Assembly (NCBI GenBank): GCA_030625925.1 | Contig: DAOUPY010000017.1 | Location: forward strand, 1 to 12,430 | DNA: 12,430 nt | Source of the DNA: Fusobacteriaceae bacterium | GTDB taxonomy: Bacteria > Fusobacteriota > Fusobacteriia > Fusobacteriales > Fusobacteriaceae | Direction: 5' to 3' | Part shown: piece after piece, positions 1-12,430 of the stretch | Layout: every line of letters starts with the position of its first letter | How positions within the stretch are numbered: the first letter of the stretch is position 1 | The notes under the pieces: generated by a model | Told to the model about the DNA's origin: nothing | The model's database searches: none | The model's input: only the letters and a program-made list of their open reading frames with translations | Translations under genes and position numbers: made by a program

Positions 1-140
1 GAGGATAAAAATGTTTCTTTAATTATATTTAAACAATTGATATTAGAACTTATCTCGGCAATCTTTCCAGCTTTTATATATAGATCTTTTATTTCATATT
101 GATTATCTATAGTATTTAATCTAGCGTTTTTTATTAACAA
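1..140 (-). CDS. pyrC: Dihydroorotase, N-terminal part (cut by window edge)
   Basis: The first 46 codons of a minus-strand gene continue past the left edge. The protein starts MLIKNARLNTIDNQYEIKD and goes on through YIKAGKIAEIS. This is the typical N-terminal beta-sandwich of cyclic amidohydrolases, and the last visible residues (ETFLS) fit the position just before the metal-binding PGxxDxHxH segment, which is outside the window. Dihydroorotase closes carbamoyl-aspartate to dihydroorotate. I chose the TTG at 140 because a strong Shine-Dalgarno (GGGGGAGG at 156-149) lies 8 bases upstream. An in-frame ATG at 158 overlaps that site and would add six residues. It follows pyrF by 45 bases in the same direction, so it is probably co-transcribed. 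The pathway context makes pyrC much more likely than another amidohydrolase, but the catalytic part is not seen. Confidence 0.8.
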   Translation of the reverse strand, partial: MLIKNARLNTIDNQYEIKDLYIKAGKIAEISSNINCLNIIKETFLS

Positions 141-185
141 AATTAATTCCTCCCCCATTTTTTTAAAACTTCTCTAGATAATTAT

Positions 186-905
186 TTATTTTAGTCCTTC
201 TTCGATTTCCTCTAAGATTAATTTAGCTGCATGGATAGGATTTTCCGATTTAGTTATGGGTCTTCCCACTACCAAGAAATCAGCACCATTTTCAATAGCC
301 ATCTTAGGAGTCATAATCCTCTTTTGATCATTTGAAGCTGCCCATAATGGTCTTACTCCTGGACAGATTGTGTAGAAGTTTTCTCCACAAAGTTCCTTTA
401 TTTTCTTGGCTTCTAATGGCGAACACACTACCCCGTGTAATCCTGATTCTTTAGTCTCTACAGCCCAGTGATTAGCTAATCCGCTGATATTTAAACTACT
501 TTTAAAGTGGGCAGCGGCCTCTTCCTCTGTAAAGGATGTTAATATTGTCACTGCTATTGCTATTGAGTCAGAATGAGTTTCTTTCAGCATATTAGCAACT
601 GACCTCATCATTGTAGGTCCTCCGCCTGCATGGACATTAAACATAAACACCTCTTGTTTATTTGCAAACATCGATGCCATAGTTGTTGTATTTGGGATAT
701 CATGAAATTTCAGGTCTAAAAATACTTTTTTATCTATGCTGTGGAGGTAATCGACTGCTTCTCCACGAGTATTTAAAAATAGTTCTAATCCTACCTTATA
801 TGTAGATATAGCATCTCCAATTTCATTTACAATATCTTTTACCTCATCTAATGTTTTATAATCTAATGCCACTATCAATCTATCTTTAGCTTTTAAATTC
901 ATCAT
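186..905 (-). CDS. pyrF: Orotidine 5'-phosphate decarboxylase
   Basis: This enzyme decarboxylates OMP to UMP, the last step of de novo UMP synthesis, in the cytoplasm. The 239-residue chain is the usual bacterial length. The catalytic motif DLKFHDIPNT is present (Asp64, Lys66, Asp69 are the charged active-site residues). The N-terminal DRLIVALD strand, YKVGLEL with Lys37, and the C-terminal phosphate-binding VVGRPIT loop are also there. The frame is intact. Two start codons are adjacent (ATG at 905 and at 902). The GGGAGG just upstream is better spaced from the second, so the true protein may be one residue shorter. The start lies inside the end of pyrD (about 20 bases overlap), which suggests translational coupling. 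It is the third gene of the minus-strand pyrK-pyrD-pyrF-pyrC group. Confidence 0.97.
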   Translation of the reverse strand: MMNLKAKDRLIVALDYKTLDEVKDIVNEIGDAISTYKVGLELFLNTRGEAVDYLHSIDKKVFLDLKFHDIPNTTTMASMFANKQEVFMFNVHAGGGPTMMRSVANMLKETHSDSIAIAVTILTSFTEEEAAAHFKSSLNISGLANHWAVETKESGLHGVVCSPLEAKKIKELCGENFYTICPGVRPLWAASNDQKRIMTPKMAIENGADFLVVGRPITKSENPIHAAKLILEEIEEGLK

Positions 906-1854
906 ACCCTCCCAATCTACTCCTGTAAGCTGCTCCTCCGTCAGGATGGGCAGCTCCTATAATCTCACTGATATTATCTATATTATTTTCTACACAGTAT
1001 TTTTCCAGTCCTTCTTTTATTTCTACTGGGAGCCTTGGGTTGGCAAACATTCCTGTTCCCAAAGATACAGCACTGGCACCTACCATAATAAATTCTATTG
1101 CATCCTCTGTAGAAGATATTCCACCCATTCCCAGGATCGGGATTGATACTGCTTGAGACACTTGGTATATCATTCTCAGTGCAACTGGTTTAACAGCAGG
1201 ACCAGATAAGCCACCCATTATATTTCCTAAAACTGGCTTTCTTTTTCTTATATCCACTGCCATTCCTAATAGCGTGTTGATAAGAGCAATACCATCTGCT
1301 CCCTCTTCCTCTACTATTTTTGCAATTTCTACTATATTGGTAACATTTGGTGATAATTTTACAATCATAGGTTTAGTCAAAACTTTTCTTACCTCACGGG
1401 TTACTAACCTCGCCATCTCTGGGTTGGCTCCAAAGGCCATCCCCCCATCCTATACATTGGGGCAGGATATGTTCAGTTCTACCATCTCTATCTCTGTAAT
1501 TTTTTCAACCTCTTTAGCAATTTCTATATATTCTTCTAAGATCTTACCATTTATATTGGCCACCAATGGAATATGAAGTTCTTTTTTTATAGATGGTATT
1601 ATCTTTTTAAATTCTTCAATTCCCGGATTTTCCAATCCTACTGAATTTAGCATTCCAGATGGTGTCTCAGCTATCCTAGTTCCGGGATTCCCGTTTCTAG
1701 GCTCCATAGTAATTCCTTTTAATACTGCTGCTCCTAATTCATTGGGGTTAAAATAATCTTTATATTCCAATCCATATCCAAAACACCCCGATGCTGTCAT
1801 TATTGGATTGTTTAATTTTTTTCCTAAAAAATTTATGTTTAATCTATTCTTCAT
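886..1854 (-). pseudogene. pyrD: Dihydroorotate dehydrogenase B catalytic subunit, interrupted by in-frame TAG
   Basis: This is a class 1B dihydroorotate dehydrogenase, the FMN subunit that oxidises dihydroorotate to orotate and passes electrons to PyrK. Reading from ATG 1854 (GGAGGG 8 bases upstream; a GTG at 1863 is less likely) gives 134 residues ending LNISCPNV, including the catalytic-base Cys131. A TAG stop follows at 1452-1450. The same frame then continues as DGGMAFGANPEMA, with VKLSPNV, GMGGISS and ASAVSLGTGMF, to a TAA at 886. Without the TAG the chain would be 322 residues, close to the family's ~311. There is no frameshift: both halves are in one frame and nothing is missing. Family members usually have lysine right after SCPNV, so AAG to TAG is a one-base change. 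The start overlaps the frameshifted end of pyrK by one base (TAATG), and the end overlaps pyrF. Possible readings are a nonsense mutation, a sequencing error, suppression, or two polypeptides from reinitiation at ATG 1440. Confidence 0.9.
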
Positions 1855-2650
1855 TAGCTGCACCCTCCATCTGGATCTGTCACATCTACATCGACTATGT
1901 CTGTACTTTCAAATACCGGACCATCATGACAAACTTTTTTCATACCTTTTTTGTCAATATAGAGCAGCCTACACAGGCTTTTATTCCACAGGCCATTCTT
2001 TCTTCTAAAGATATTTGACATCTTATATTATTTTCTTGTGCTATTTTTGCCACTGCTTCCATCATAGGATGAGGTCCACAAGTGTAGATTATATCTATAT
2101 TTTGATTTTGATCTTTCAAGATTTCCTTTAATAGATCTACAGTATTTCCTTTTATCCCTACACTGCCGTCATCTGTAGCTATCTTCACTTGAATATTTTC
2201 AAAATCAAATCTTTCTATGATTTTTACAGCTCCAGCATTTCTTCCGCCGCCTATAAAAGTGACCTTATTGCTGTCCTTTAAAGCTTTAATAAGGTACTTA
2301 ATGGGAGCCATTCCCATTCCGCCGCCTATTACTACTATATTTTTTTCCTCAAGATCTGTATCGTATCCATTTCCTAGAGGTCCCTGGATATTTATAGTTT
2401 CACCTATAGATAGTTTGGTGAATTCTTCAGTACCACGGCCCAAAGATTCATAATAAAATTCCAAAGTATCAGCATCTACATTGTGCAGACTTATAGGTCT
2501 TCTCAAAACCCTTGATTTATCCTTGCACTGGAGCATAAAAAACTGGCCTGGTTTAGAATATTTAGGTATTTTATCCCCTTTTACCCTCATTAAATAATAG
2601 TTATCTGCTATCTGTATATTCTCTATAATCTTAACATCTTCTAAAAACAT
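1854..2650 (-). CDS. pyrK: Dihydroorotate dehydrogenase electron-transfer subunit, full length only with a -1 frameshift
   Basis: PyrK carries FAD and a [2Fe-2S] cluster and moves electrons from PyrD to NAD+. In the zero frame the protein has 236 residues and stops at TGA 1942-1940. Visible motifs are the FAD-binding RPISLHN (51-57), GPLGNGYD (90-97), GGGMGMAPIKYLIKAL (109-124) and CGPHPMM (191-197). The cluster ligands Cys221, Cys226 and Cys229 follow. The fourth ligand is missing from this frame. A -1 shift at the heptamer A-AAA-AAG (1952-1946), two codons before the stop, continues as GMKKVCHDGPVFESTD. It restores the fourth cysteine (241) and ends at TAA 1856-1854, giving 265 residues, which is normal for the family. 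The restored end overlaps the pyrD ATG by one base, as expected for an intact operon. The start ATG 2650 has GGAGG 5 bases upstream. Whether the shift is programmed, a mutation in an A-run or a base-calling error cannot be decided here. Confidence 0.92.
1946..1952 (-). other. Candidate -1 ribosomal frameshift heptamer A-AAA-AAG in pyrK
   Basis: The zero-frame codons are ACA AAA AAG GTA TGA, so the heptamer is in the phase required for tandem -1 slippage and is identical to the E. coli dnaX slip site. The -1 frame recovers the rest of PyrK exactly. I do not see a strong Shine-Dalgarno-like stimulator upstream or a stable stem directly downstream. The alternative is loss of one A from an A7 run. 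Confidence 0.5.
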
Positions 2651-2681
2651 ATATTCCTCCTAGATACCCTTATATTGGTTT

Positions 2682-2722
2682 AAAAAAAAAGGAATAAAAA
2701 CTAAAATATTAGTTTTTATTCC
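2682..2722 (-). terminator. Intrinsic terminator in the pyrK leader (attenuator 1)
   Basis: On the minus strand a perfect 14-bp stem (GGAATAAAAACTAA / TTAGTTTTTATTCC, 2722-2709 and 2704-2691) with a 4-base loop is followed by nine U residues. It lies between a promoter and pyrK and not after a gene, so it can act as an attenuator. The last three bases of the 5' arm are the stop codon of the leader peptide, so a ribosome that reaches the stop would cover the arm and block termination. Confidence 0.85.
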
Positions 2723-2852
2723 CACTATTATAAATATAAAAATTAAAAATTGTATTGACTGCTCCAAATATAACATAGGGAACATCAGTTAAAAAAATAA
2801 GAAATTTATCTATGAAATTTATAAAACTATTCTTTGTCATTAAAAACTTCAT
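2709..2852 (-). CDS. Pyrimidine operon leader peptide 1 (47 residues)
   Basis: This short ORF starts at ATG 2852 with GGGAGG 5 bases upstream and ends at TAA 2711-2709, inside the 5' arm of the attenuator. The peptide begins MKFLMTKNSF and is rich in Phe, Ile, Leu, Asn and Tyr. Residues 23-31 are DVPYVIFGA. The leader upstream of carA has DVPYITYGA the same distance from its stop (21 against 22 codons between the Tyr and the stop codon). The coding RNA is U-rich on both sides of this core, including a U7 run at 2797-2791. By analogy with E. coli PyrL, tight coupling of ribosome and polymerase when UTP is low would prevent termination and raise pyrKDF expression. That mechanism is inferred; the ORF, its ribosome site and its position are seen directly. 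Confidence 0.75.
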   Translation of the reverse strand: MKFLMTKNSFINFIDKFLIFLTDVPYVIFGAVNTIFNFYIYNSGNKN

Positions 2853-2883
2853 ATTAACCTCCCTGTTTTTTTATCTTTTGAAG

Positions 2884-2913
2884 ATATTACCACAGTAATA
2901 CCAAGTTTGTCAA
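2884..2913 (-). promoter_or_regulatory. Sigma-70-type promoter for the pyrK leader operon
   Basis: A perfect -35 TTGACA (2913-2908) is followed after 18 bases by TAATAT (2889-2884), preceded by TG one base away (extended -10). Transcription would begin about 25-30 bases before the leader ATG. The promoter sits in the gap after dfx, so the pyr operon need not rely on read-through from dfx. Confidence 0.7.
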
Positions 2914-2934
2914 GGATTTTATTTTTATATTCTC

Positions 2935-3318
2935 TTATTTATTGGTTTTCCAGTGTCCATGGAGATTGCAATAAGCTCTAGCTTCTGCATGTTCTCCATA
3001 ACATGCTTTAAAGGTGATTTTTGGAATATCTCCTGGTTTTAAAAATTTAGTGGACACACAACCGTCTACTATTAGTTCTATCCATTCAATATAATGATCT
3101 TCCGTCATTGGATGAAGAGTCGATCCTATCTGTACTTCATAACCATCGCTTAATTTAGTCACTTTTGGAAGATGTTTTTCTACAGCAGCATCTCTTGTGT
3201 TTTCTACCTGTAAAATCATCTCCTTTCCACAACAACTTAGAGCTCCAGCTCCTCCATGCATCATCTCTGTGATGTTGCCACATATTTCACACTTGTAAAC
3301 TTCCAATCTTTTAGTCAT
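2935..3318 (-). CDS. dfx: Desulfoferrodoxin (superoxide reductase, two iron centres)
   Basis: The protein reduces superoxide to hydrogen peroxide in the cytoplasm, a typical oxygen defence of anaerobes. It has 127 residues, the family length. The N-terminal desulforedoxin domain shows all four iron-binding cysteines: Cys10 and Cys13 (KCEICG) and Cys29-Cys30 (SCCGKEM). The C-terminal neelaredoxin domain has the catalytic-centre ligands His49 (after Glu47-Lys48), His69, His75, Cys117 and His120 (AYCNLHGHW). The start ATG 3318 follows a G6 run 5 bases upstream, which serves as a Shine-Dalgarno. A TATACT (3358-3353, minus) could be its -10 box, but no well-spaced -35 is clear. It is divergent from the ychJ-like gene and lies just upstream of, but is probably separate from, the pyrK operon. 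Confidence 0.96.
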   Translation of the reverse strand: MTKRLEVYKCEICGNITEMMHGGAGALSCCGKEMILQVENTRDAAVEKHLPKVTKLSDGYEVQIGSTLHPMTEDHYIEWIELIVDGCVSTKFLKPGDIPKITFKACYGEHAEARAYCNLHGHWKTNK

Positions 3319-3458
3319 TTTTACCCCCCAATTTTTTTATTTCTTCTTGTCTAGTATACCCTATTTTAATTTTTTTCCTAGTACAATTTTTAATTTCTTT
3401 AAAATATTCATATTTTGTTATCTATCTCTAGGAACTCTTAGGAAAATTACTCTGCATA

Positions 3459-3467
3459 TGGTATAAT
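3459..3467 (+). promoter_or_regulatory. Extended -10 promoter for the ychJ-like gene
   Basis: An exact extended -10 sequence, TG-G-TATAAT, lies about 38 bases before the GTG start. No convincing -35 box is present at 17-18 bases, as is usual for extended -10 promoters. Confidence 0.6.
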
Positions 3468-3504
3468 TATAGGAAATTATACATAAAATTTAGGAGGAAA
3501 TCAA

Positions 3505-3990
3505 GTGAAAAATTGCCCTTGCGGAAAAGAATTAAGTTATGAAGAATGTTGTAAACCATATATATCAGGTGAAAAGGTACCGGCTACTGCTGAAGATATG
3601 ATGAGATCTAGATATACAGCTTATGTTGTAGGAGAGGTAGATTATGTCTACGACACACATAATCCTAAAACACGTGGAACTCTTAGTAAGGAAGAGATCA
3701 AACACTGGTCTGATACTACAGAGTGGAATAAGTTAGAGATCATTGAAACTTTAGATGGAGGTGCAGATGATTCTGAAGGTATCGTGGAATTTAAAGGCCA
3801 CTATTTAGAAGAGGGAGAAACATTATTTCACCATGAAAGAGCAGTATTTAAAAAAATAGACGGAGCATGGATGTATGATTCAGCACTATCTACACAAAAG
3901 ACAATAAAAAAAGAAGTTAAAATTGGTAGAAATGACCCATGTCCATGTGGATCAGGGAAAAAATATAAAAAATGTTGTGGAAAAAACTAA
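3505..3990 (+). CDS. ychJ: YchJ-like protein with SEC-C motifs at both ends
   Basis: This 161-residue protein has a zinc-binding SEC-C motif at each end. The N-terminal one is [13 protein letters not shown] (Cys4, 6, 15, 16) and the C-terminal one is [13 protein letters not shown] (Cys146, 148, 157, 158). Between them is the NTF2-like middle domain typical of YchJ (UPF0225), with MMRSRYTAY (32-40), WNKLEI and [17 protein letters not shown]. The molecular function of the family is not established. SEC-C motifs bind zinc, and in SecA they contact SecB and ribosomes. The GTG at 3505 is chosen because AGGAGG (3492-3497) lies 7 bases upstream and the N-terminal CPCG is then complete. It has its own promoter and terminator and no obvious link to the pyrimidine genes. 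Confidence 0.9.
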
Positions 3991-4001
3991 ATAGTTCTTT
4001 T

Positions 4002-4029
4002 AAAAAATGGGAGAAATCCCATTTTTTTT
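4002..4029 (+). terminator. Intrinsic terminator after the ychJ-like gene
   Basis: An 11-bp stem (AAAAAATGGGA / TCCCATTTTTT) with a GAAA loop ends in eight T residues, 12 bases after the stop codon. The run of A on the other arm means it may also end transcription arriving from the minus strand. The stretch from 4030 to 4182 shows no gene or clear structure. Confidence 0.9.
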
Positions 4030-4182
4030 ATGAATGATATCTATTAAAGAGTTCTAGTTATCGATAGTCCAAAATTCAATACATTTTCTGAAAAATAGAA
4101 AATTTAATATGATTTTTGAATCTAATAGGGATTTAACAGAATCTAACCTACAGATAAAAATTTATGATTATTAAAACAAAGT

Positions 4183-4210
4183 GCCCGAGAGGTTTGAGAT
4201 CCTCTCGGGC
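4183..4210 (-). terminator. GC-rich hairpin, probable terminator of the marR-type gene
   Basis: A perfect 10-bp stem GCCCGAGAGG / CCTCTCGGGC with an 8-base loop stands out in very AT-rich surroundings. On the minus strand it is followed by ACTTTGTTTT, a broken U-tract, about 90 bases beyond the MarR stop codon. On the plus strand it is followed by A residues, so it works best for the minus-strand gene. Confidence 0.7.
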
Positions 4211-4301
4211 AAAAATATTCTTGATATAATAATATTTTATCTAATCCTTTTAAAATACACCTTTTATACCCATTACATCTATATTTATAGTTTTTTGAGT
4301 T

Positions 4302-4739
4302 CTATTTTACTGGTTTTTTTAGGTTGTTTTTCATCTCCAAAAGTATTGTTTTCAATTCATCCTTCTGGTCTTGAGAAAGTCCAGATGTAATTTTTTCTAA
4401 AAATTCAGATGCTATTTCATCAAAGTCCTTTGCATATTTTATCCCTTCTTCGGTAAGCCTTACATACAGGTGTCTCCTGTCTAGAGTACAGCTTTCTTTC
4501 TCAATAAGTCCCTGCTCAGAATATTTGCATAAAACATCACAAAGTGTTGATTTAGATTTTCTCCATAGATAAGCTATGTCTTTAAACTCTAGATTATTAT
4601 TGGCGAAAAGTACCATAAATAAACCCACATGTTTTCCTTCAATTGGGATCTCTCTTTTTTTCAATTCTACCTTTAGATAGTCAGCGAAGTTGTTGCTGAT
4701 ATGATATATCACTCCTATTATAGAACTTGCTAAAACCAT
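4302..4739 (-). CDS. MarR-family transcriptional regulator
   Basis: This 145-residue protein has the layout of a MarR winged-helix dimer: an N-terminal dimerisation helix (about 1-25), a winged helix-turn-helix core (about 35-105), and a C-terminal amphipathic helix with many Lys and Glu. Recognisable parts are the recognition-helix region KSKSTLCDVLCKYSEQGLIE and the wing DRRHLYVRLTEEG. MarR proteins usually repress their own and neighbouring genes and respond to small ligands; the ligand here cannot be deduced. The ATG at 4739 has GGAGG 7 bases upstream. It has its own promoter (4772-4800), in which a TTCGAA dyad lies between the -35 and -10 boxes and could be an autoregulatory operator. 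Its upstream neighbour in the same direction is the membrane protein at 4945-5922, a possible target. It ends with TAG, so TAG works as a normal stop here. Confidence 0.85.
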   Translation of the reverse strand: MVLASSIIGVIYHISNNFADYLKVELKKREIPIEGKHVGLFMVLFANNNLEFKDIAYLWRKSKSTLCDVLCKYSEQGLIEKESCTLDRRHLYVRLTEEGIKYAKDFDEIASEFLEKITSGLSQDQKDELKTILLEMKNNLKKPVK

Positions 4740-4771
4740 ATTATTACCTCCATTTTTAATCTTCCTATAGC

Positions 4772-4800
4772 ATTATATACGATTTCGAATGATTTATCAA
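4772..4800 (-). promoter_or_regulatory. Sigma-70-type promoter for the MarR-type gene
   Basis: TTGATA (4800-4795) and TATAAT (4777-4772) are separated by exactly 17 bases, a near-consensus promoter, about 33 bases before the start codon. A TTCGAA palindrome lies in the spacer. Confidence 0.75.
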
Positions 4801-4944
4801 TTTTTTTTTACTTTCTAGGAGAGATAAATTCCATTATTTTCAATATTTTCAAAAGTGAAAAATATCTATTGGTCGGTATAAATGAACTAAAATAGATTGA
4901 AATCAAATATGAGTTAGATTTTTTCTAGTCAATAATTTTTATAT

Positions 4945-5922
4945 TTAGATCATTTTATTTCCAAACCTGTCTACTATACTTCCTAAGCCAAGTAAAATTA
5001 AGAACAATTTTATCAACCATCCTATAAAAGGCAAACTTATTAAAATTATTATAACCAGACTAGATAACAAAAGTTTGAAAAAGTTTATTTCATCAAAATA
5101 TTTAGTTGCTATAATTAGGTTTGCTACAGGGGTAGCCAAAAACAGTAAGATCATATAGAATAAAATCAGTAAGATCCCCACGGGAAATCCTAAAATTGTA
5201 ATAAATAACAATATAGCAGCTACCGGGGTGAGAACTAAAGCTGCAAATCCCTTAAATAAAATTAAACTTTTATTATTTAAATATCTATCCAACCTTTCTT
5301 TTCCCAATTCTTTTTTTAGTTTAAAGATTATATAGGTAAGTATAAACAAGTAAAATACTGAAAATAGTTTAAATGGAAGAAAAGTAAAGTGTCTTTCGTA
5401 GGTATAATTTTTCTCTGTCTTTTTTACAAGTTCTCCCATTACACGGCCTTCTATTACAGGCATTTCATCATTATAATAGATATCTCCTTTAACAACCGCT
5501 CCCTTAGATACCAGGAGGTTTCCATCTACCTCAATATCACCATTTATAACTGCCCCCTCTGAGACGATGGCGTTTTGAACAACCATTCTGACATCTCCAC
5601 CTACAGAAGCATTTATATATAAATTTTTAGCCATTATATTTAAATTACCCTCTACTAATCCGTCTATTGTAACATGTCTGCCTGCCAGGTAGAGTTCTTT
5701 AGACCTGCTTTTAATTGTAATTATTTCACCCGCAATAATTACACGTTTAGAGGAATTTCTATCTATAAGTACTTCTCTACCTGCTACAACCAAATCTCCT
5801 TCATCGCCATCATTTACAACTATATTTTCTCCTATTGCAAATTTCCCAAAAATATTTTCCGATTCTGAAAAACTGAAAACTGAAATTAAAGTTATAAATA
5901 ATATAATACATATTTTCTTCAT
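4945..5922 (-). CDS. Exported beta-helix (bactofilin-like) protein with C-terminal membrane segments
   Basis: This 325-residue protein starts with a signal peptide (MKKICIILFITLISVFSF, cleavage probably near residue 18-21). A run of short beta-strand repeats follows (about 28-165) with alternating hydrophobic residues and recurrent Gly-Asp/Asn turns, for example EGDLVVAGR, VEGNLNIMAKN, INGDIEVDGN and VKGDIYYND. This is the right-handed beta-helix pattern of polymer-forming (bactofilin-like) proteins. Four or so transmembrane helices (about 182-200, 222-244, 246-271 and 282-312) complete it. The beta-helix would therefore be outside the cytoplasm and the C-terminus in the inner membrane. The function is unknown, and a structural or envelope role is only suggested by the fold. 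The start has a very strong GGAGGAGG 5 bases upstream. The MarR-type gene follows in the same direction 205 bases on. That gap has no clear terminator and carries the MarR promoter. Confidence 0.8.
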   Translation of the reverse strand: MKKICIILFITLISVFSFSESENIFGKFAIGENIVVNDGDEGDLVVAGREVLIDRNSSKRVIIAGEIITIKSRSKELYLAGRHVTIDGLVEGNLNIMAKNLYINASVGGDVRMVVQNAIVSEGAVINGDIEVDGNLLVSKGAVVKGDIYYNDEMPVIEGRVMGELVKKTEKNYTYERHFTFLPFKLFSVFYLFILTYIIFKLKKELGKERLDRYLNNKSLILFKGFAALVLTPVAAILLFITILGFPVGILLILFYMILLFLATPVANLIIATKYFDEINFFKLLLSSLVIIILISLPFIGWLIKLFLILLGLGSIVDRFGNKMI

Positions 5923-6096
5923 CCTTACCTCCTCCTTTTATTTTTTATAAAATCCCCCAAGAACTCCCAATTTTAAGCAATAGGCTAAGGGGTGAGAGTA
6001 CATCAATTTTAGTTATATAACTTAATATACTGCATATTATGCTGATTTCTTTTAAAATAAAAAAAGCAACGTGACCTTAGATTAAAAAATAAAAAT
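5923..6096. other. Divergent intergenic region with two palindromes
   Basis: Between the membrane-protein gene (minus) and the car operon promoter (plus) there is no ORF with a ribosome site. Two dyads are visible: AGTTATATAACT, perfect 12 bp, at 6011-6022, and GCATATTATGC at 6032-6042. Either could be a protein-binding site. I cannot assign a clear promoter for the minus-strand gene. Confidence 0.4.
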
Positions 6097-6133
6097 TTGA
6101 CAAATCTAATTATTTTTGTTAATCTGATATAAG
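6097..6133 (+). promoter_or_regulatory. Promoter of the carA leader operon
   Basis: A perfect -35 TTGACA (6097-6102) is followed after 17 bases by TAATCT (6120-6125), a weak -10. Slightly downstream an extended -10, TG-A-TATAAG (6125-6133), is a better box but is 25 bases from this -35. Either gives a start about 10 bases or fewer before the leader Shine-Dalgarno. The -35 is part of the sequence AAATTTGACAAAT, which occurs again at the leader start (6152-6164). Confidence 0.6.
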
Positions 6134-6155
6134 AAATTTTAAGGAGGCGTTAAAT

Positions 6156-6314
6156 TTGACAAATAAAAGATTACTAATAATACCAATTAAATTTGATAAT
6201 CTGTTTCAATTTAACAAATTTTTATTTTTGAAAGATGTTCCTTATATAACATATGGAGCGATATCTTTGTTTTTAAATTTTAATAATAATTTTATTCTGA
6301 AGAATAATGACTAA
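6156..6314 (+). CDS. Pyrimidine operon leader peptide 2 (52 residues, TTG start)
   Basis: The ORF starts at TTG 6156, 8 bases after a perfect AAGGAGG (6141-6147), and stops at TAA 6312-6314. The protein begins MTNKRLLIIP and contains KFLFLKDVPYITYGA (21-35). It matches leader peptide 1 in the KFL.FL.DVPY...GA core and in the following Phe/Asn-rich stretch (NF before the stop). The shared residues use different synonymous codons (CCT against CCC, GCG against GCA), so the similarity is at protein level. U-rich tracts flank the core. The stop codon ends the 5' arm of the terminator hairpin, exactly as in leader 1. No ATG is available in frame, which makes the TTG start likely. The role inferred is UTP-sensitive control of carA-carB-pyrB. 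Confidence 0.75.
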   Translation: MTNKRLLIIPIKFDNLFQFNKFLFLKDVPYITYGAISLFLNFNNNFILKNND

Positions 6315-6342
6315 TCTATTTTAGTTATTATTCTTTTTTTTT
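6300..6342 (+). terminator. Intrinsic terminator in the carA leader (attenuator 2)
   Basis: A 15-bp stem with one G-U pair (6300-6314 with 6321-6335, loop TCTATT) runs into a T-tract that extends to 6342. It lies 31 bases before the carA start codon, so it ends transcription ahead of the operon. The final three bases of its 5' arm are the leader stop codon, the same arrangement as at 2682-2722. Confidence 0.87.
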
Positions 6343-6373
6343 AACATAAACACATGAGAACTAAGGAGGCGTT

Positions 6374-7435
6374 ATGAAAGCAAAACTAATATTAGAAAAT
6401 GGAATGGTGTTCGAGGGGAAAGCTTTTGGGTATACAGAGGAAGCTGTGGGAGAGCTGGTTTTTAATACCTCTATGACAGGATATCAGGAGGTCCTGACTG
6501 ATCCGTCTTACTACGGACAAATAGTTGTAATGACTTATCCAATGATAGGAAACTATGGTCTTAACCTAGATGATATAGAAAGTAATGGTGCAAAAGTAAG
6601 AGGCTTTGTAATAAAGGAACCTGCTAAATTACCAAATAACTTTAGATGTGAAATGACCCTGGATGGTTATTTAAAACAACATAAGATAATGGGATTTAAA
6701 GGGATTGATACAAGACACCTAACAAAGATTATAAGGGATAATGGATCCATGAAAGCTATCATCACTATAGAAGAGCTCACACAAAAAGAAATTAAAAATA
6801 CAATGAATGATTTTTCAAATGTAGACGCCGTAAGTATCGTAAGTACAAAGGAGATCTATGAAGCTCCTTGTGGTGCAGAACAAGTAAATAAAAAAATTGG
6901 AATGATTGATTTTGGAATAAAACGAAATATCATCAGATCATTTCATAAGAGAAACTGTGATCTAACTATCTTTCCATGGAACACAACTGCTGAGGAGATC
7001 TTATCCTATGATCTAGATGGTGTATTTTTATCCAATGGACCTGGAGATCCCGCAGATTTAACTGATGTAATAGATGAGATCAAAAAGATGATAGGGAAAA
7101 TTCCTATCATTGGAATATGTCTGGGGCATCAACTGTTAGCTTGGGCATTAGGCGGATCCACTAACAAGTTAAAGTTTGGTCATAGGGGAGTCAACCATCC
7201 AGTAAAAGATTTAGAAAAAAATAAGATATTTATAACATCTCAAAATCATGGGTATGTAGTAGACAAAATGCCAGAAGGTGTAGAGATAACTCAAATAAAC
7301 TTAAACGATAATTCAGTAGAGGGAATGAAAGATTATAAGAATAAAATAGCATCGGTACAATACCATCCAGAAGCAGCACCAGGACCGGAAGATTCACAGT
7401 ATGTGTTTGATGATTTCATTGATATGCTAGGATAA
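6374..7435 (+). CDS. carA: Carbamoyl-phosphate synthase small (glutaminase) subunit
   Basis: CarA hydrolyses glutamine and channels ammonia to CarB for carbamoyl phosphate synthesis, the entry to pyrimidines and arginine. The 353-residue chain has the CarA-specific N-terminal domain (VFEGKAFGY and SMTGYQEVLTDPSY, about 12-46). A class I glutamine amidotransferase domain follows: NGPGDP (221-226), the nucleophile Cys249 in GICLGHQ, TSQNHGYVV (288-296), and the catalytic His331 and Glu333 in QYHPEAAPGP. All key residues are present. The start ATG 6374 has AAGGAGG only 4 bases upstream; the sequence AAGGAGGCGTTA is the same at the leader peptide start. It is the first structural gene after attenuator 2, with carB 114 bases downstream. 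Confidence 0.98.
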   Translation: MKAKLILENGMVFEGKAFGYTEEAVGELVFNTSMTGYQEVLTDPSYYGQIVVMTYPMIGNYGLNLDDIESNGAKVRGFVIKEPAKLPNNFRCEMTLDGYLKQHKIMGFKGIDTRHLTKIIRDNGSMKAIITIEELTQKEIKNTMNDFSNVDAVSIVSTKEIYEAPCGAEQVNKKIGMIDFGIKRNIIRSFHKRNCDLTIFPWNTTAEEILSYDLDGVFLSNGPGDPADLTDVIDEIKKMIGKIPIIGICLGHQLLAWALGGSTNKLKFGHRGVNHPVKDLEKNKIFITSQNHGYVVDKMPEGVEITQINLNDNSVEGMKDYKNKIASVQYHPEAAPGPEDSQYVFDDFIDMLG

Positions 7436-7471
7436 CTCGTAAATCGGAAAACGATAATTTAATATTCTTCG

Positions 7472-7533
7472 TTGGTTTCTTTAACCAAGAGAAACCATAA
7501 AAAAGAAGAGTCATCTCTTTGGTAAATTTTTTT
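7472..7533 (+). promoter_or_regulatory. Competing hairpins between carA and carB (candidate attenuator)
   Basis: An upstream stem, TGGTTTCT / AGAAACCA (7473-7480 with 7490-7497), or a smaller TTGGTT / AACCAA version, overlaps a second possible stem. The second, ACCAAGAGA (7484-7492) with TCTCTTTGGT (7514-7523, one bulged base), is followed by AAA and seven T residues (7527-7533). The first and second stems cannot form together. This is the layout of an antiterminator/terminator pair or of partial termination, but the second stem has a long loop and is not strong. Confidence 0.45.
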
Positions 7534-7549
7534 AAAGTGAGGTAATAGA

Positions 7550-10500
7550 ATGTTAGATAAAAATATAAAGAAAACTCTTGTAATAGGATCTGGACCAATT
7601 GTAATAGGACAGGCTGCAGAATTTGATTATTCAGGAACTCAAGCTTGTGAGGCATTAAAAGAAGAGGGGGTAGAAGTAGTATTAATAAACTCTAACCCTG
7701 CAACTATCATGACAGATAAAAGTGTAGCCGACAGAATATATATTGAACCTATCACATTGGAGTTTGTAACTAAAGTAATAGTCAAGGAAAAACCTGATTC
7801 AATCTTAGTGGGGATGGGTGGACAAACTGCACTTAATATGGCAGTAGAATTAGAAGACAGTGGAATACTGGCTGAACATAATATCAAAGTACTGGGTACA
7901 AGTATCGATTCTATAAAAAGGGGAGAAGACAGAGACCTATTTAGAGATGCTATGAATAAGATAGGGGAACCCACTATAGAGAGTATGATAGTTGAGAACC
8001 TAGAAGACGGATTGGAATTTGCTGCCCAAATAGGGTATCCATTGATTGTAAGACCTGCATATACACTGGGGGGGACTGGTGGAGGAATGGCCAACAACCC
8101 TCAAGAGTTAGAAGACATCTTATTAAAGGGATTGGTTCTTTCTAGAGTAAAACAAGTATTGGTTGAAAAATCTATCCTTGGATGGAAAGAAGTAGAGTAT
8201 GAGGTAATGAGAGATATAAATGGCAATAGAATTACAGTATGTAATATGGAAAACATCGATCCAGTTGGAATCCATACAGGAGACAGTATCGTAGTCGCTC
8301 CTTCCCAAACATTATCCGATAAAGAATATCAAATGCTCAGAACATCTGCACTTAACATCATAGATGAAATTGGAATTGTAGGAGGATGTAATGTACAGTT
8401 TGCTCTCAACCCCGATTCATTTGAATATGCAATTATAGAGATCAACCCTAGGGTATCAAGATCATCAGCACTAGCTTCTAAAGCTACTGGTTACCCCATT
8501 GCAAGGGTAGCAGCAAAATTATCACTGGGTTATACCCTGGATGAAGTAAAAAATGAGGTTACAGGAAAAACATATGCTTGTTTTGAACCGGCACTGGACT
8601 ATATAGTAGTAAAGATTCCAAAATGGCCATTTGATAAATTCGATAAGGCTGACAGAAAATTAGGTACAAAGATGATGGCTACTGGAGAGATCATGGCTAT
8701 TGGAAACAACTTTGAATCTGCATTTCTAAAAGGTATAAGATCATTGGAGATAGGACAATACAGCTTAGAGCATAAAGCATCTAAGATAAGATCTATGGAA
8801 GAACTAAAAAAGAGGGTGGTAAGCCCGGATGATGAAAGAATATTTGATCTGGCTGAGATGCTGAGACGTGGGTATACTAAGACTATGTTACAAAAGATAA
8901 CTGGGATGGATCCATTCTTCATGGAAAAACTCCAATGGATAGTGGGACAGGAGGAAATTTTAAAAAAGACCACATTATCCGATCTTACTCCTAAAAACCT
9001 TAGAAACTGGAAGAAAAAAGGATTTTCAGACAGGGCCATGGCAGAATTTATGGGATTAAACGAAGATGATATAGTAGCTAAAAGAAAAGAGCTGAATGTT
9101 ATGCCTGTATATAAGATGGTAGATACTTGTGCTGGAGAATTTGAAGCTTCATCATCTTATTATTACTCAACTTATGACCTATATGATGAGGTAGAGATAT
9201 CGGACAGGAGAAAAGTTATAGTAATTGGATCTGGGCCTATTAGAATCGGGCAGGGAATTGAATTTGACTACTGTACAGTGCATACAGTAAAAGCACTGCA
9301 GAATTTAGATATAGAGACTATCATCATAAACAACAACCCTGAGACTGTTTCTACAGATTTCTCAACTGCTGATAAACTATACTTTGAACCATTAGTGCTA
9401 GAAGACGTAATGAATATTATTGAAAAAGAAAACCCAGAGGGAGTTATCCTGCAATTCGGCGGGCAGACTGCTATAAAATTAGCCAATGATTTAGCAGACT
9501 TAGGAATTAACATCATAGGTACTTCTGCTGAAATGATAGATGCTGCTGAAGATAGAGAGAAATTTGAGGCTATATTAGAAAAATTAGATATAAAAAGACC
9601 CAAGGGAAGAGCTGTTTGGAATACTGAAGATGGTGTAGCAGAGGCTGAAAAAGTAAAATATCCCGTATTAGTAAGACCTTCATATGTATTAGGAGGACAA
9701 GGGATGGAAATATGCTACTTAGAAGAAAACTTAAAGGGGTATTTAGAAGCTTCTTTCATCAGAGATCCTAAAAATCCAGTATTGGTAGATAAATACTTAA
9801 ATGGTGTGGAGATCGAAGTAGATGCAATCTGTGACGGTGAAGATGTACTTATTCCTGGAATCATGGAACATCTTGAGAGAGCAGGAATTCATTCTGGGGA
9901 CTCGATTACAGTTTACCCACAGCAAAATTTATACGAGGGTACGGAAGAAGAGATATTAGAAATAACCAGAAAATTAGCTAAGGAATTGAATATCATAGGG
10001 ATGATGAATATACAGTTTATTGCATATGAAAATGAGCTATATATCATAGAAGTGAATCCAAGATCATCTAGAACTGTTCCTTATATCTCCAAAGTAGCTG
10101 GAGTTCCAATGATTGAACTGGCAACAAAAGTAATGCTCGGACAAAAATTAACTGATCTGGCATATGGTACAGGAATATATAAAAAACCAAATCTAGTAGC
10201 AGTAAAAGTTCCTGTATTCTCTACAGAAAAACTTGGTGGAGTAGAAGTGTCTCTAGGACCTGAGATGAAATCCACAGGAGAAGTATTGGGAATAGGAAAC
10301 AATATGGATGAAGCTATCTACAAGGGCCTTGTAGGAGGATATAGAATACATGAGATTAAAAACAAGAGAGTTTTAGCTACTATAAAAGGAAGCGATAAAG
10401 ATGAATTCTTAAGCTTAGCCAAAAGACTTATAGGTCAAGGGTGTACAATGATCGGAACTGGTGGAACTGCTGAGTACCTGAATAATAACGGTGTTCCATG

Positions 10501-10756
10501 TGAAACTGTAAATAAGATCAATGAAGCATCTCCTAATATAATAGATAAATTAAAAACACAGCAAATAGATCTCCTTATCAACACTCCTACAAAGGCAAAT
10601 GATGCCCAAAGGGATGGTTTTAAGATAAGAAGAACAGCCATCGAATATGGTGTAGAAGTATTGACTTCACTGGATACACTGAATGCAGTATTAAACATCA
10701 TGGAAAAAGACGTAAATACTAGAGACTTAGATATCTTTGATATCAGTAAGATCTAG
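7550..10756 (+). CDS. carB: Carbamoyl-phosphate synthase large subunit
   Basis: CarB makes carbamoyl phosphate from bicarbonate, ammonia and two ATP in complex with CarA. The 1068 residues match the family length with no breaks. The order is: carboxyphosphate ATP-grasp half (1 to about 400, with [17 protein letters not shown] near the start, GTGGGMA and [20 protein letters not shown]), an oligomerisation region (about 400-550), the carbamoyl-phosphate half that repeats the pattern ([43 protein letters not shown]), and a C-terminal methylglyoxal-synthase-like allosteric domain (about 937-1068, with [11 protein letters not shown]). In E. coli that last domain binds UMP and ornithine. The ATG at 7550 has GAGG 7 bases upstream. 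It ends with TAG at 10754-10756; a readthrough there would run into another TAG after five codons, so TAG is a stop in this genome. Confidence 0.98.
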
Positions 10757-10826
10757 GAGACCCTGCCCTGTTAGGTATCCTCTCTCTGTCAAAGAGATAA
10801 AAAAATAAGAATTTAATAAAAAAATT

Positions 10827-10852
10827 GAAAGAGGTTGTATACAACCTCTTTC
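10827..10852. promoter_or_regulatory. 26-base perfect palindrome between carB and pyrB
   Basis: GAAAGAGGTTGTA is followed directly by its exact reverse complement. As RNA it would form an 11-bp stem with a TATA loop. On the plus strand no T-tract follows, so it is not a standard terminator for carB. On the minus strand it is followed by AATTTTTTT, but no minus-strand gene is near. It could be an operator, an mRNA processing or stability hairpin, or part of a switch with upstream CCTCTCTC or AAAGAG (10785-10796). Confidence 0.6.
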
Positions 10853-10869
10853 ATAATATCTAATTGACG

Positions 10870-10898
10870 TTCCTTTAGGAAAACCATTAAAGGAAAGG
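10870..10898 (+). promoter_or_regulatory. Small hairpin upstream of the pyrB ribosome site
   Basis: TTCCTTTA and TAAAGGAA form an 8-bp stem with a loop of about ten bases, ending roughly a dozen bases before the AGGAGG of pyrB. It might affect pyrB translation. No T-tract follows. Confidence 0.35.
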
Positions 10899-10919
10899 CA
10901 AAAATAAGGAGGAAAATAA

Positions 10920-11942
10920 ATGAAGGAAATACTATCATTAAATAATTTAACTGTAAAAGATATCGTAACTGTATTAGATAAGGCAAGAGAATTAGAAAAT
11001 AATCCTAAACCTTGTGAGTTAGAGAACAAAATTTTATCCACTGTATTTTTTGAACCCTCTACCCGGACTAAGTTATCTTTTATAAGTGCTATGTATAGAT
11101 TAGGAGGAAAAGTCATAGAGTTGGATGGAGGAGGGAATAACTCCCTGAAAAAAGGAGAAACCATTTCCGATACCCTCACTATGATGGGCCTCTATACTGA
11201 TATTATGGCAATTAGAAGTCCCTATGAGGGAACAGCCACAAGAGCAAGCGAAATTTTAGATATCCCTGTAATAAATGCAGGGGATGGAGCTAACCAACAC
11301 CCAACCCAAACTTTACTGGATCTTTATACCATACAAAAGGAAAAAGGCAGGTTAGATAATTTAGAGATTGCATTTGTTGGAGATCTCAAATATGGAAGAA
11401 CTGTTCATTCGTTAGCTAAGGCGTTGGATAAATTTAACGGGAATAAGATTTATTTTATAGCTCCTCCTGAGATGCAGATTCCCTCTTATATATTAGATTC
11501 TCTTTCTTTAGAATATGAAGTCCTAGAAAACTATGAAGCTATTATGAAAGACGTGGATATCCTATATATGACCAGGATACAGGAAGAACGATTTGATGAT
11601 CCCAAAGATTTTAAAAAATGTGCTGGTAAATATAAAATAGATAAAGAAATTTTAAAAATATCCAAACCTGATTTAAAAATTCTTCATCCATTACCAAGAG
11701 TGGGAGAGATCCATACAAATTTAGATTCTACTCTCAATGCGGTTTATTTTTCCCAGGCCAAAAATGGAGTTTTTGTAAGGCAGGCCATCATAAGTTTACT
11801 CATGAAAGATCATACTAAACTTACATATAAAGGATTAGAAAGAAAGTGTCATAATCCTAAATGTATCTCACAAATAGAGGATTTAGGCGGGAAATGGATA
11901 GAATTTAAAGGAAACAAAGTATGTTTCTACTGTGAAAAATAA
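10920..11942 (+). CDS. pyrB: Aspartate carbamoyltransferase catalytic chain fused to a PyrI-like zinc domain
   Basis: The enzyme joins carbamoyl phosphate and aspartate, the first committed step of pyrimidine synthesis. Residues 1 to about 300 are a complete catalytic chain of the E. coli type: FEPSTRTKLSF (44-54), KKGETISDT (77-85), NAGDGANQHPTQTLLDLYTI (119-138), VGDLKYGRTVHSL, ILYMTR and HPLPRVGEIH (256-265). After about residue 303 comes an extension, KCHNPKCIS ... VCFYC, with Cys310, Cys315, Cys335 and Cys338 spaced C-x4-C-x19-C-x2-C. This closely resembles the zinc domain of the regulatory chain PyrI (C-x4-C-x23-C-x2-C). The nucleotide-binding domain of PyrI is absent. The zinc domain in E. 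coli bridges catalytic and regulatory chains, so the fusion may stabilise assembly without allosteric ATP/CTP control; this is inference. The start has AGGAGG 7 bases upstream. It follows carB by 163 bases and is probably co-transcribed. Confidence 0.96.
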   Translation: MKEILSLNNLTVKDIVTVLDKARELENNPKPCELENKILSTVFFEPSTRTKLSFISAMYRLGGKVIELDGGGNNSLKKGETISDTLTMMGLYTDIMAIRSPYEGTATRASEILDIPVINAGDGANQHPTQTLLDLYTIQKEKGRLDNLEIAFVGDLKYGRTVHSLAKALDKFNGNKIYFIAPPEMQIPSYILDSLSLEYEVLENYEAIMKDVDILYMTRIQEERFDDPKDFKKCAGKYKIDKEILKISKPDLKILHPLPRVGEIHTNLDSTLNAVYFSQAKNGVFVRQAIISLLMKDHTKLTYKGLERKCHNPKCISQIEDLGGKWIEFKGNKVCFYCEK

Positions 11943-11957
11943 TTTATTCCCATAAAA

Positions 11958-12064
11958 TTTAGCATAAAATTCTATGTTCATGAGATAAATCACTAGTATT
12001 CTGGGGGTATCATTCCCAGGCTATTGAAAAAAGAGGTATGAAAATACATACCTATCAAGCTAAA
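11958..12064 (+). other. Possible structured RNA after pyrB
   Basis: This non-coding stretch before the terminator contains nested pairings. TTTAGC (11958-11963) can pair with GCTAAA (12059-12064), enclosing CTGGG/CCCAG (12001-12019) and AGGTATG/CATACCT (12034-12053). Together they would make a three-way junction. I do not recognise it as a known riboswitch or RNA family, and short pairings are easy to find in AT-rich DNA. Confidence 0.25.
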
Positions 12065-12071
12065 ATAATTC

Positions 12072-12105
12072 AAGGAGTTAATTTATATAATTAGCTCCTT
12101 TTTTT
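12072..12105 (+). terminator. Intrinsic terminator of the car-pyrB operon
   Basis: A 12-bp stem AAGGAGTTAATT / AATTAGCTCCTT with one G-U pair and a 5-base loop is followed by a T-tract, 130 bases after the pyrB stop codon. Confidence 0.85.
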
Positions 12106-12204
12106 AATTTTGTATGTTAACTTGGGATATTATCAAGTAATTTTAAGTATTACAAAAAAAACACTTGCAAAAATGTCTAAAAAATATTATTATTTTTATG
12201 AGTT

Positions 12205-12239
12205 GGTTCTTAGTAACTTTTTGTTGCTAAGACCTTTTT
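12205..12239 (+). terminator. Second strong hairpin with T-tract
   Basis: GGTTCTTAGTAAC and GTTGCTAAGACC (12205-12217 with 12223-12234) form a long stem with one bulge and one G-U pair around a T5 loop, then T5-C-T5. On the plus strand it looks like a terminator, although the pyrB operon already ends at 12105. It covers the stop codon of the minus-strand frame at 12210, so it may instead mark the end of a mobile or repeated element. Between 12106 and 12204 I see no gene. Confidence 0.55.
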
Positions 12240-12430
12240 CTTTTTATCTATAATTTTTCTTATTTTACTATTCAAGCGTTCGAACCTTTTGGAACATTTT
12301 AATAAATTTAAAAATCCATCTAATATTTGCAAAGAGCTTTTTAAAACCCTGCGAATACTCATTTCTTTTGGAAAACCATCATAAATATTTTTAGTAATTT
12401 CAAGTAATAAAATCATTTTAATTAATGTAG
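12210..12430 (-). CDS. Unrecognised C-terminal reading frame (cut by window edge)
   Basis: A minus-strand frame is open from the right edge to TAA at 12212-12210, about 73 residues. The sequence is basic and helical-looking, for example SIRRVLKSSLQILDGFLNLL and RFERLNSKIRKIIDKKKK. An internal ATG at 12416 exists, but there is no good Shine-Dalgarno before it and the frame stays open upstream, so this is probably the tail of a longer protein. The Lys/Arg-rich tail directly followed by a hairpin would suit a transposase or other mobile-element protein, but I do not recognise the family and chance ORFs of this size occur in AT-rich DNA. Confidence 0.35.
   Translation of the reverse strand, partial: TLIKMILLLEITKNIYDGFPKEMSIRRVLKSSLQILDGFLNLLKCSKRFERLNSKIRKIIDKKKKVLATKSY

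Follow-up and report, generated by a model that had tools for sequence, protein, structure and literature searches.

The DNA considered here, called the window, is a stretch of 12,430 nucleotides (nt) from a Fusobacteriaceae bacterium (assembly GCA_030625925.1, contig DAOUPY010000017.1, positions 1 to 12,430 of the forward strand). It carries two divergent groups of pyrimidine genes: the minus strand encodes pyrK, pyrD and pyrF, and the plus strand carA, carB and pyrB. Both groups are preceded by a short leader open reading frame (ORF) that ends in an intrinsic terminator just upstream of the operon, and the two leader peptides share a DVPYxxxGA core. These two leaders, their relatives in other Fusobacteriota and the way in which they may control the pyrimidine genes are the subject of this report.

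On the minus strand, a consensus scan places the promoter of the pyrK-side leader at TTGACA (2913-2908) and TAATAT (2889-2884), separated by 18 nt and with a TG before the -10 element. The Shine-Dalgarno sequence GGGAGG (2858-2863) is followed by a leader ORF of 47 codons (2709-2852) that starts with ATG and ends with TAA at 2711-2709. The DVPYxxxGA codons of this ORF could form an RNA hairpin (2761-2783) in which GUUCC (2783-2779) pairs with GGAGC (2765-2761). A U-rich tract of 37 nt (2724-2760, U fraction 0.51 by base count) connects the putative hairpin to the intrinsic terminator (2690-2723), the presumed attenuator, whose 5' arm is closed by the leader TAA and which continues into a T run at 2689-2682. 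The first gene past it is pyrK (1940-2650), followed by pyrD (886-1863, present as two ORF pieces) and pyrF (186-905).

The carA-side leader, on the plus strand, is built in the same way. A probable promoter (6097-6125) consists of TTGACA (6097-6102) and TAATCT (6120-6125) with 17 nt in between, and the Shine-Dalgarno sequence AGGAGG (6142-6147) precedes an ORF of 52 codons (6156-6314) with a TTG start and a TAA at 6312-6314. The putative hairpin at the core codons (6231-6268) has an inner stem of GUUCC (6237-6241) and GGAGC (6255-6259) and an outer stem of AAAGAU (6231-6236) and AUCUUU (6263-6268). It is followed by a U-rich tract (6269-6298) and by the terminator (6299-6336), again a presumed attenuator, with its 5' arm at 6299-6314, loop at 6315-6320 and 3' arm at 6321-6336, and then a T run. 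Past this terminator lie carA (6374-7435), carB (7550-10756) and pyrB (10920-11942).

The two terminator regions, of 81 nt each, fold at -16.9 and -16.6 kcal/mol, with z values of -3.85 and -3.99 against shuffles, and the final codon of the 5' arm is the leader TAA on both sides (GGGAATAAAAACTAA and GAAGAATAATGACTAA). A preliminary description of this DNA had listed the two ORFs with their Shine-Dalgarno sequences, the terminators with TAA ending the 5' arm, and synonymous differences between the two cores (CCC/CCT and GCA/GCG); the ORF listing, folding and the letters themselves agree with all of these. The core had been placed 21-22 codons before the stop, and this needs correction: counted with the Asp of DVPY included, the distance is 26 codons on the carA side and 25 on the pyrK side. 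The promoters stand only in part. The one on the pyrK side was found by the scan, which over the whole window returned 49 promoter-like sites against 58.5 in shuffles, that is, no excess. The carA-side promoter is absent from the scan list and was read by eye, with its letters checked. The Shine-Dalgarno sites and the kept reading frames suggest that both leader ORFs are translated. Neither peptide matches NCBIfam or Pfam-A at E 0.001.

Leaders in the genus and in the phylum

The host belongs to a genus, labelled g1 among the 98 Fusobacteriota genomes used for comparison, that is probably Psychrilyobacter; the closest named matches of its CarA come from metagenome genomes labelled Psychrilyobacter, Fusobacteriaceae or Fusobacteriia. 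All eight g1 genomes carry both leaders, which bears out the earlier proposal that the two gene groups have homologous leader attenuators. In these 16 leaders the stop lies in the terminator at a fixed position, and DVPY and the Gly four residues later are invariant. As a DNA pattern with fixed spacing, DVPYxxxGA occurs only twice in the host genome and is found in seven of the 98 genomes, all of them g1. In the eighth g1 genome (G058), from which both leaders were recovered, Ser or Thr replaces the last Ala of the core, and the FLTDVPY pattern is found in 8 of the 98 genomes, again all g1. The viral contigs searched gave no match. Conservation of the peptide and of the stop-in-stem arrangement in relatives, whose absence would have refuted the preliminary description, is found within g1 (8/8); among the 98 genomes the core was found in g1 only, and the peptides differ from genus to genus.

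One g1 genome (G059, loci L127 and L128) has the sequence AAATCTTC right before the core in both leaders, unlike the leaders of the other genomes. It shows the highest carA synonymous divergence (dS) from the window, and the sharing of AAATCTTC reflects either common ancestry or conversion.

The design is wider than the preliminary description supposed, being shared by many Fusobacteriota with unrelated peptides. Matches to carA over the cut-off were present in 76 of the 98 genomes, and upstream regions were taken from a chosen part of these, which gave a survey of 71 loci that includes two copies from some genomes and one of the 13 genomes of g21. The survey looked for a terminator no more than about 180 nt from carA and for an ORF with a Shine-Dalgarno-like site. 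A terminator is present in 58 of the 71 upstream regions, and in 54 of these 58 a leader ORF ends in the stem or loop or passes through the terminator; shuffled upstream sequence predicts 0.3 such cases in total. The peptides differ between genera, and also within g5, which indicates that position is kept rather than sequence. In seven g3 genomes the leader ORF passes through the terminator, and in the two whose ORF ends were inspected it stops at the carA ribosome site, a situation similar to that of E. coli pyrL, which ends 3 nt before pyrB. The upstream stretches become richer in U toward the terminator, with a U fraction of 0.55 in the last 60 nt before it as compared to 0.37 in the preceding 80 nt.

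The four loci that have a terminator and no automatically detected ORF (G003, G015, the second copy of G038, and G045) contain candidate ORFs under other criteria but were scored as lacking one, and for G042 the automatically chosen terminator is probably the wrong hairpin. The 13 loci lacking a terminator are those of G016 and G017 (genus g4), two of g13, one each of G040, G062, G065, G066 and G068, and second carA copies in G041, G042, G043 and G045. Upstream of pyrB the same arrangement scored in nine of 20 regions, although in G038 the ORFs are just 18-26 amino acids long. Several further pyrB regions have a visible hairpin and T run that the script missed, and these are not included in the count.

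The gene groups behind the leaders vary. In G041, G045 and G087 carA, carB, pyrB, pyrK, pyrD and pyrF are all together, and in G002, G006, G028 and G042 just carA and carB occur within the fetched stretch. Two divergent pyrimidine groups are found in the g1 loci and in a named contig (L017) whose CarA is 78% identical. On this contig each group has a leader with its stop at the terminator (by eye on the pyrK side) and without DVPY, so that leaders on two groups look older than the shared core. The core would then have arisen in the g1 lineage, through duplication or conversion.

Constraint on the core codons and a putative hairpin

The preliminary description took the conservation of DVPYxxxGA by itself as a sign that the nascent peptide matters. 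This is not borne out in that form: the core occurs in one genus only among the 98 genomes (plus unplaced metagenome proteins), the protein-level constraint on the leaders is weak, and the synonymous sites of the core are frozen. The third positions of the Val and Gly codons, which are paired in the putative hairpin, are invariant in all 16 g1 leaders. The third position of the Pro codon, which is unpaired, differs among leaders of both groups; in the Ala codon it differs among the carA-side leaders. Among the invariant columns of carA in the same eight genomes, 2 of 13 for Val and 4 of 29 for Gly keep one codon. Counted over all columns with an invariant amino acid, a single codon is kept in 9 of 11 in the core versus 94 of 286 in carA. 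Ratios of nonsynonymous to synonymous divergence (dN/dS) against G000 are 0.17-0.60 for the carA-side leader and 0.29-1.60, from few changes, for the pyrK-side leader, compared to 0.02-0.05 for carA, and leader dS is below carA dS in all seven comparisons. The N-terminal half of the leaders has diverged while the DVPY core is invariant, and the 3' half is constrained at the nucleotide level. Frozen synonymous sites combined with a loose leader dN/dS suggest that constraint on the core sequence acts more at the level of RNA or DNA than at that of the protein. A constraint on the RNA seems slightly the better bet as the reason for core conservation.

A possible basis for such a constraint is pairing within the core. 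The codons GAT GTT CCN TAT ... GGA GC can form a stem of 5 base pairs, GUUCC/GGAGC, in which 79 of 80 pair cells over the 16 g1 leaders are standard; registers slid against each other give 22.5-68.8%. The carA-side stem can be extended (AAAGAU/AUCUUU), and one double change from A-U to G-C occurs in G059. The end of the inner stem lies 39 nt from the terminator stem on the carA side and 37 nt on the pyrK side, and for E. coli pyrL a hairpin chosen by inspection of the sequence (-11.0 kcal/mol) has its end at 38 nt from the terminator. Of 54 leader rows, in which a G026 locus appears two times and a few of the terminators are doubtful, eight have a simple hairpin of -5 kcal/mol or below, and all eight place it 32-43 nt from the terminator, in four genera. 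The shuffle fractions for hairpin position, with one row per genus, multiply to 9e-5; this is a post hoc test, since the limits of -5 kcal/mol and 32-43 nt were set after the general hairpin-enrichment results had been seen. The DVPYxxxGA stretch may therefore be kept at least partly for an RNA hairpin near the terminator, as judged from pairing and position.

Another pairing was considered and rejected. An antiterminator of GUUCCC in the pyrK leader with GGGAAU of its terminator arm finds no partner in the pyrK leader of G059 or in the carA leaders.

A probable pyrBI-type attenuator and its alternatives

PMC10135430 describes the attenuation of E. coli pyrBI as pausing at low uridine triphosphate (UTP) on a U-requiring template, with a coupled ribosome that prevents the terminator from forming. 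PMC5021804 and PMC3641672 state the same mechanism in short. We suggest that each of the two leaders is an attenuator of this type, in which DVPYxxxGA is kept partly for the hairpin and the peptide is mostly a by-product, and we assign this reading a probability of about 0.7. A ribosome would translate the leader ORF behind the RNA polymerase as the latter transcribes the U-rich leader. If UTP is plentiful, the polymerase would run ahead, the terminator would fold, and transcription would stop before pyrK or carA. When UTP is low, the polymerase would pause in the U-rich stretch and the ribosome would close up over the terminator's 5' arm, which contains the leader stop, so that transcription continues. 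The hairpin at the core codons, about 38 nt before the terminator, could help to place the polymerase pause. The anatomy, its conservation throughout the genus, its recurrence with unrelated peptides in other genera, the U-richness and the nucleotide-level constraint are features of the DNA itself. UTP as the signal, the pause, the formation and role of the hairpin and the action of the ribosome are inferred.

The U fraction from start codon to terminator is 0.41-0.50 in the 16 g1 leaders versus 0.27 in carA, and the leaders are also 78-85% A+T. PyrR was found over the cut-off (E 1e-10) in 3 of the 98 genomes, G016-G018, all of genus g4, and no leader terminator precedes either of the two g4 carA genes examined. 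The analogy to E. coli pyrBI drawn in the preliminary description is therefore strengthened by the occurrence of the same design in many Fusobacteriota, by the U-rich leaders and by the lack of a PyrR match over the cut-off in 95 of the 98 genomes.

Several observations weigh against this proposal. The absence of PyrR is not a clean exclusion because the sampled carA loci of g13, g15, g18, g19 and g21 have neither a leader nor PyrR over the cut-off. The E. coli pyrL leader, counted from ATG to terminator, has a U fraction of only 0.34, while PMC10135430 gives its template as 49% U. As for the hairpin, the carA leader of G058 breaks one stem pair, and the stability of the hairpin does not exceed that of synonymous recodings (mean z -0.06 to -0.93). 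Of the two measurements by which the preliminary description would have judged peptide and RNA, dN/dS gave the weak protein constraint reported above, and covariation was not significant: on the carA side 64 of 500 shuffles reach the observed value, the other two alignments contain no double change, and in both a register slid by 3 scores higher covariation. Leaders overall are not rich in hairpins (median p 0.78, 54 rows). Finally, PMC9291695 describes the E. coli pyrL pause as sequence-dependent, with no NusA effect and no compensatory rescue, and places it about 24 nt from an earlier site.

If the peptide itself were the sensor, the nascent DVPYxxxG core would slow or arrest the ribosome from within the exit tunnel, perhaps in response to pyrimidines, and thereby decide whether the terminator forms. 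The invariance of DVPY and the following Gly next to a diverged N-terminal half is what such a role would leave behind. The metagenome peptides P0017 and P0018 (E 0.22 and 0.73) carry FLTDVPYVIFG in otherwise unrelated flanks, which keeps a function of the peptide in consideration, and other metagenome relatives, available as proteins without genome placement, also keep DVPY. However, the synonymous sites of the core are frozen as well, and the design recurs in other genera that lack the motif. Asp lies 25, 26, 31 or 33 codons from the stop in different peptides, which misfits arrest at the stop, although arrest within the core would be unaffected. P0010 and P0016, metagenome relatives of the pyrK-side leader, keep DVPY and, to judge from their protein sequences, seem to continue in a different frame downstream, so the C-terminal peptide may not be needed; that other frame is open through the terminator in the window (2660-2785, minus strand). 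On these grounds we regard sensing by the nascent peptide as unlikely. The core might also serve both purposes, as a ribosome brake or nascent-chain sensor and as a pause hairpin within about 27 nt, timing both machines before the terminator. This idea is a speculative one, to which we give little weight; if true, a core shared by two divergent operons of one genus would coordinate the two halves of the pathway.

The nucleotide-level constraint on the 3' half of the leaders would also suit binding of the leader RNA by a regulatory protein or an RNA switch, in which case the ORF would matter little. In Bacillota, PyrR control typically involves terminators ahead of pyrimidine genes. Yet no PyrR match at E 1e-10 was obtained in the eight g1 genomes, some of which are incomplete (the host genome is 82% complete), no Rfam family reaches its gathering score in the window, and ORFs with Shine-Dalgarno sites are kept in 54 of 58 loci despite their differing peptides. 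Control by such a factor therefore appears very improbable. That the terminators are constitutive and the ORFs are there by chance, with no regulation at all, would be hard to reconcile with 54 cases against 0.3 in shuffles and with a stop position fixed in all 16 g1 leaders, and hardly deserves credence.

The pyrBI-type attenuator proposed here can be compared with known systems. Like E. coli pyrBI and its leader PyrL, the fusobacterial loci combine a pyrimidine operon with a U-rich leader and a leader ORF that overlaps the terminator, and the putative hairpin ends at a similar distance (38 nt in E. coli, 37 and 39 nt here). Some g3 ORFs run through the terminator, like pyrL as annotated in E. 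coli. Unlike in E. coli, the stop in Psychrilyobacter is the end of the 5' arm and does not lie beyond the terminator, two divergent operons (carAB-pyrB and pyrKDF) are preceded by leaders, and in most loci examined it is carA, not pyrB, that would be controlled; the peptides are unrelated. PyrR attenuation in Bacillota also has a terminator before pyrimidine genes, but the leaders described here contain an ORF that is probably translated, and among the 98 genomes PyrR is over the cut-off only in G016-G018. In TnaC and SpeFL, too, a terminator follows a short leader ORF whose peptide has an invariant motif; here, in contrast, the distance from motif to stop varies, the motif is found in one genus among 98 genomes and synonymous sites are conserved. 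The trpL and hisL leaders likewise couple an ORF to a terminator, but a run of codons for a pathway amino acid is absent here and no conserved antiterminator pairing was seen in the g1 leaders.

Neighbouring genes and wider meaning

Some of the genes around the leaders show peculiarities of their own. An in-frame stop splits pyrD (886-1863, minus strand) into 886-1440 and 1450-1863, both of which match dihydroorotate dehydrogenase. The joined pieces have nearly full-length tblastn matches in relatives, and the stop is either a sequencing error or a real interruption. An ORF at 1854-2021 (minus strand) overlaps the 3' end of pyrK and resembles the terminal part of PyrK read in a different frame, so pyrK may also be frameshifted in the assembly. 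PyrB (10920-11942, plus strand) has 340 residues, of which about 45 lie past its two carbamoyltransferase domains, whose matches stop at 293-295. The extension has no Pfam match and holds four Cys, which we take to resemble the zinc part of PyrI. The gap between carB and pyrB contains a 12-base-pair hairpin (10826-10853) with a T run on the minus strand, where no notable gene adjoins. Between the two pyrimidine groups lie genes for a desulfoferrodoxin (2935-3318, minus), for a YchJ/SEC-C protein (3505-3990, plus) and for a protein (4945-5922, minus) whose match to bactofilin narrowly misses the cut-off.

The pyrBI operon is the textbook case of nucleotide-sensing attenuation, known mainly from enteric bacteria. 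In openly licensed papers, searched by titles and the starts of abstracts, no description of such fusobacterial leaders was found. The loci reported here present a pyrBI-like anatomy in a distant phylum, with unrelated peptides and with four genera in which a predicted hairpin lies near the E. coli distance. With about fifty natural variants at hand, one can ask what matters in the coupling between ribosome and polymerase. If the leaders do work in the pyrBI manner, many Fusobacteriota would regulate pyrimidine synthesis without PyrR.

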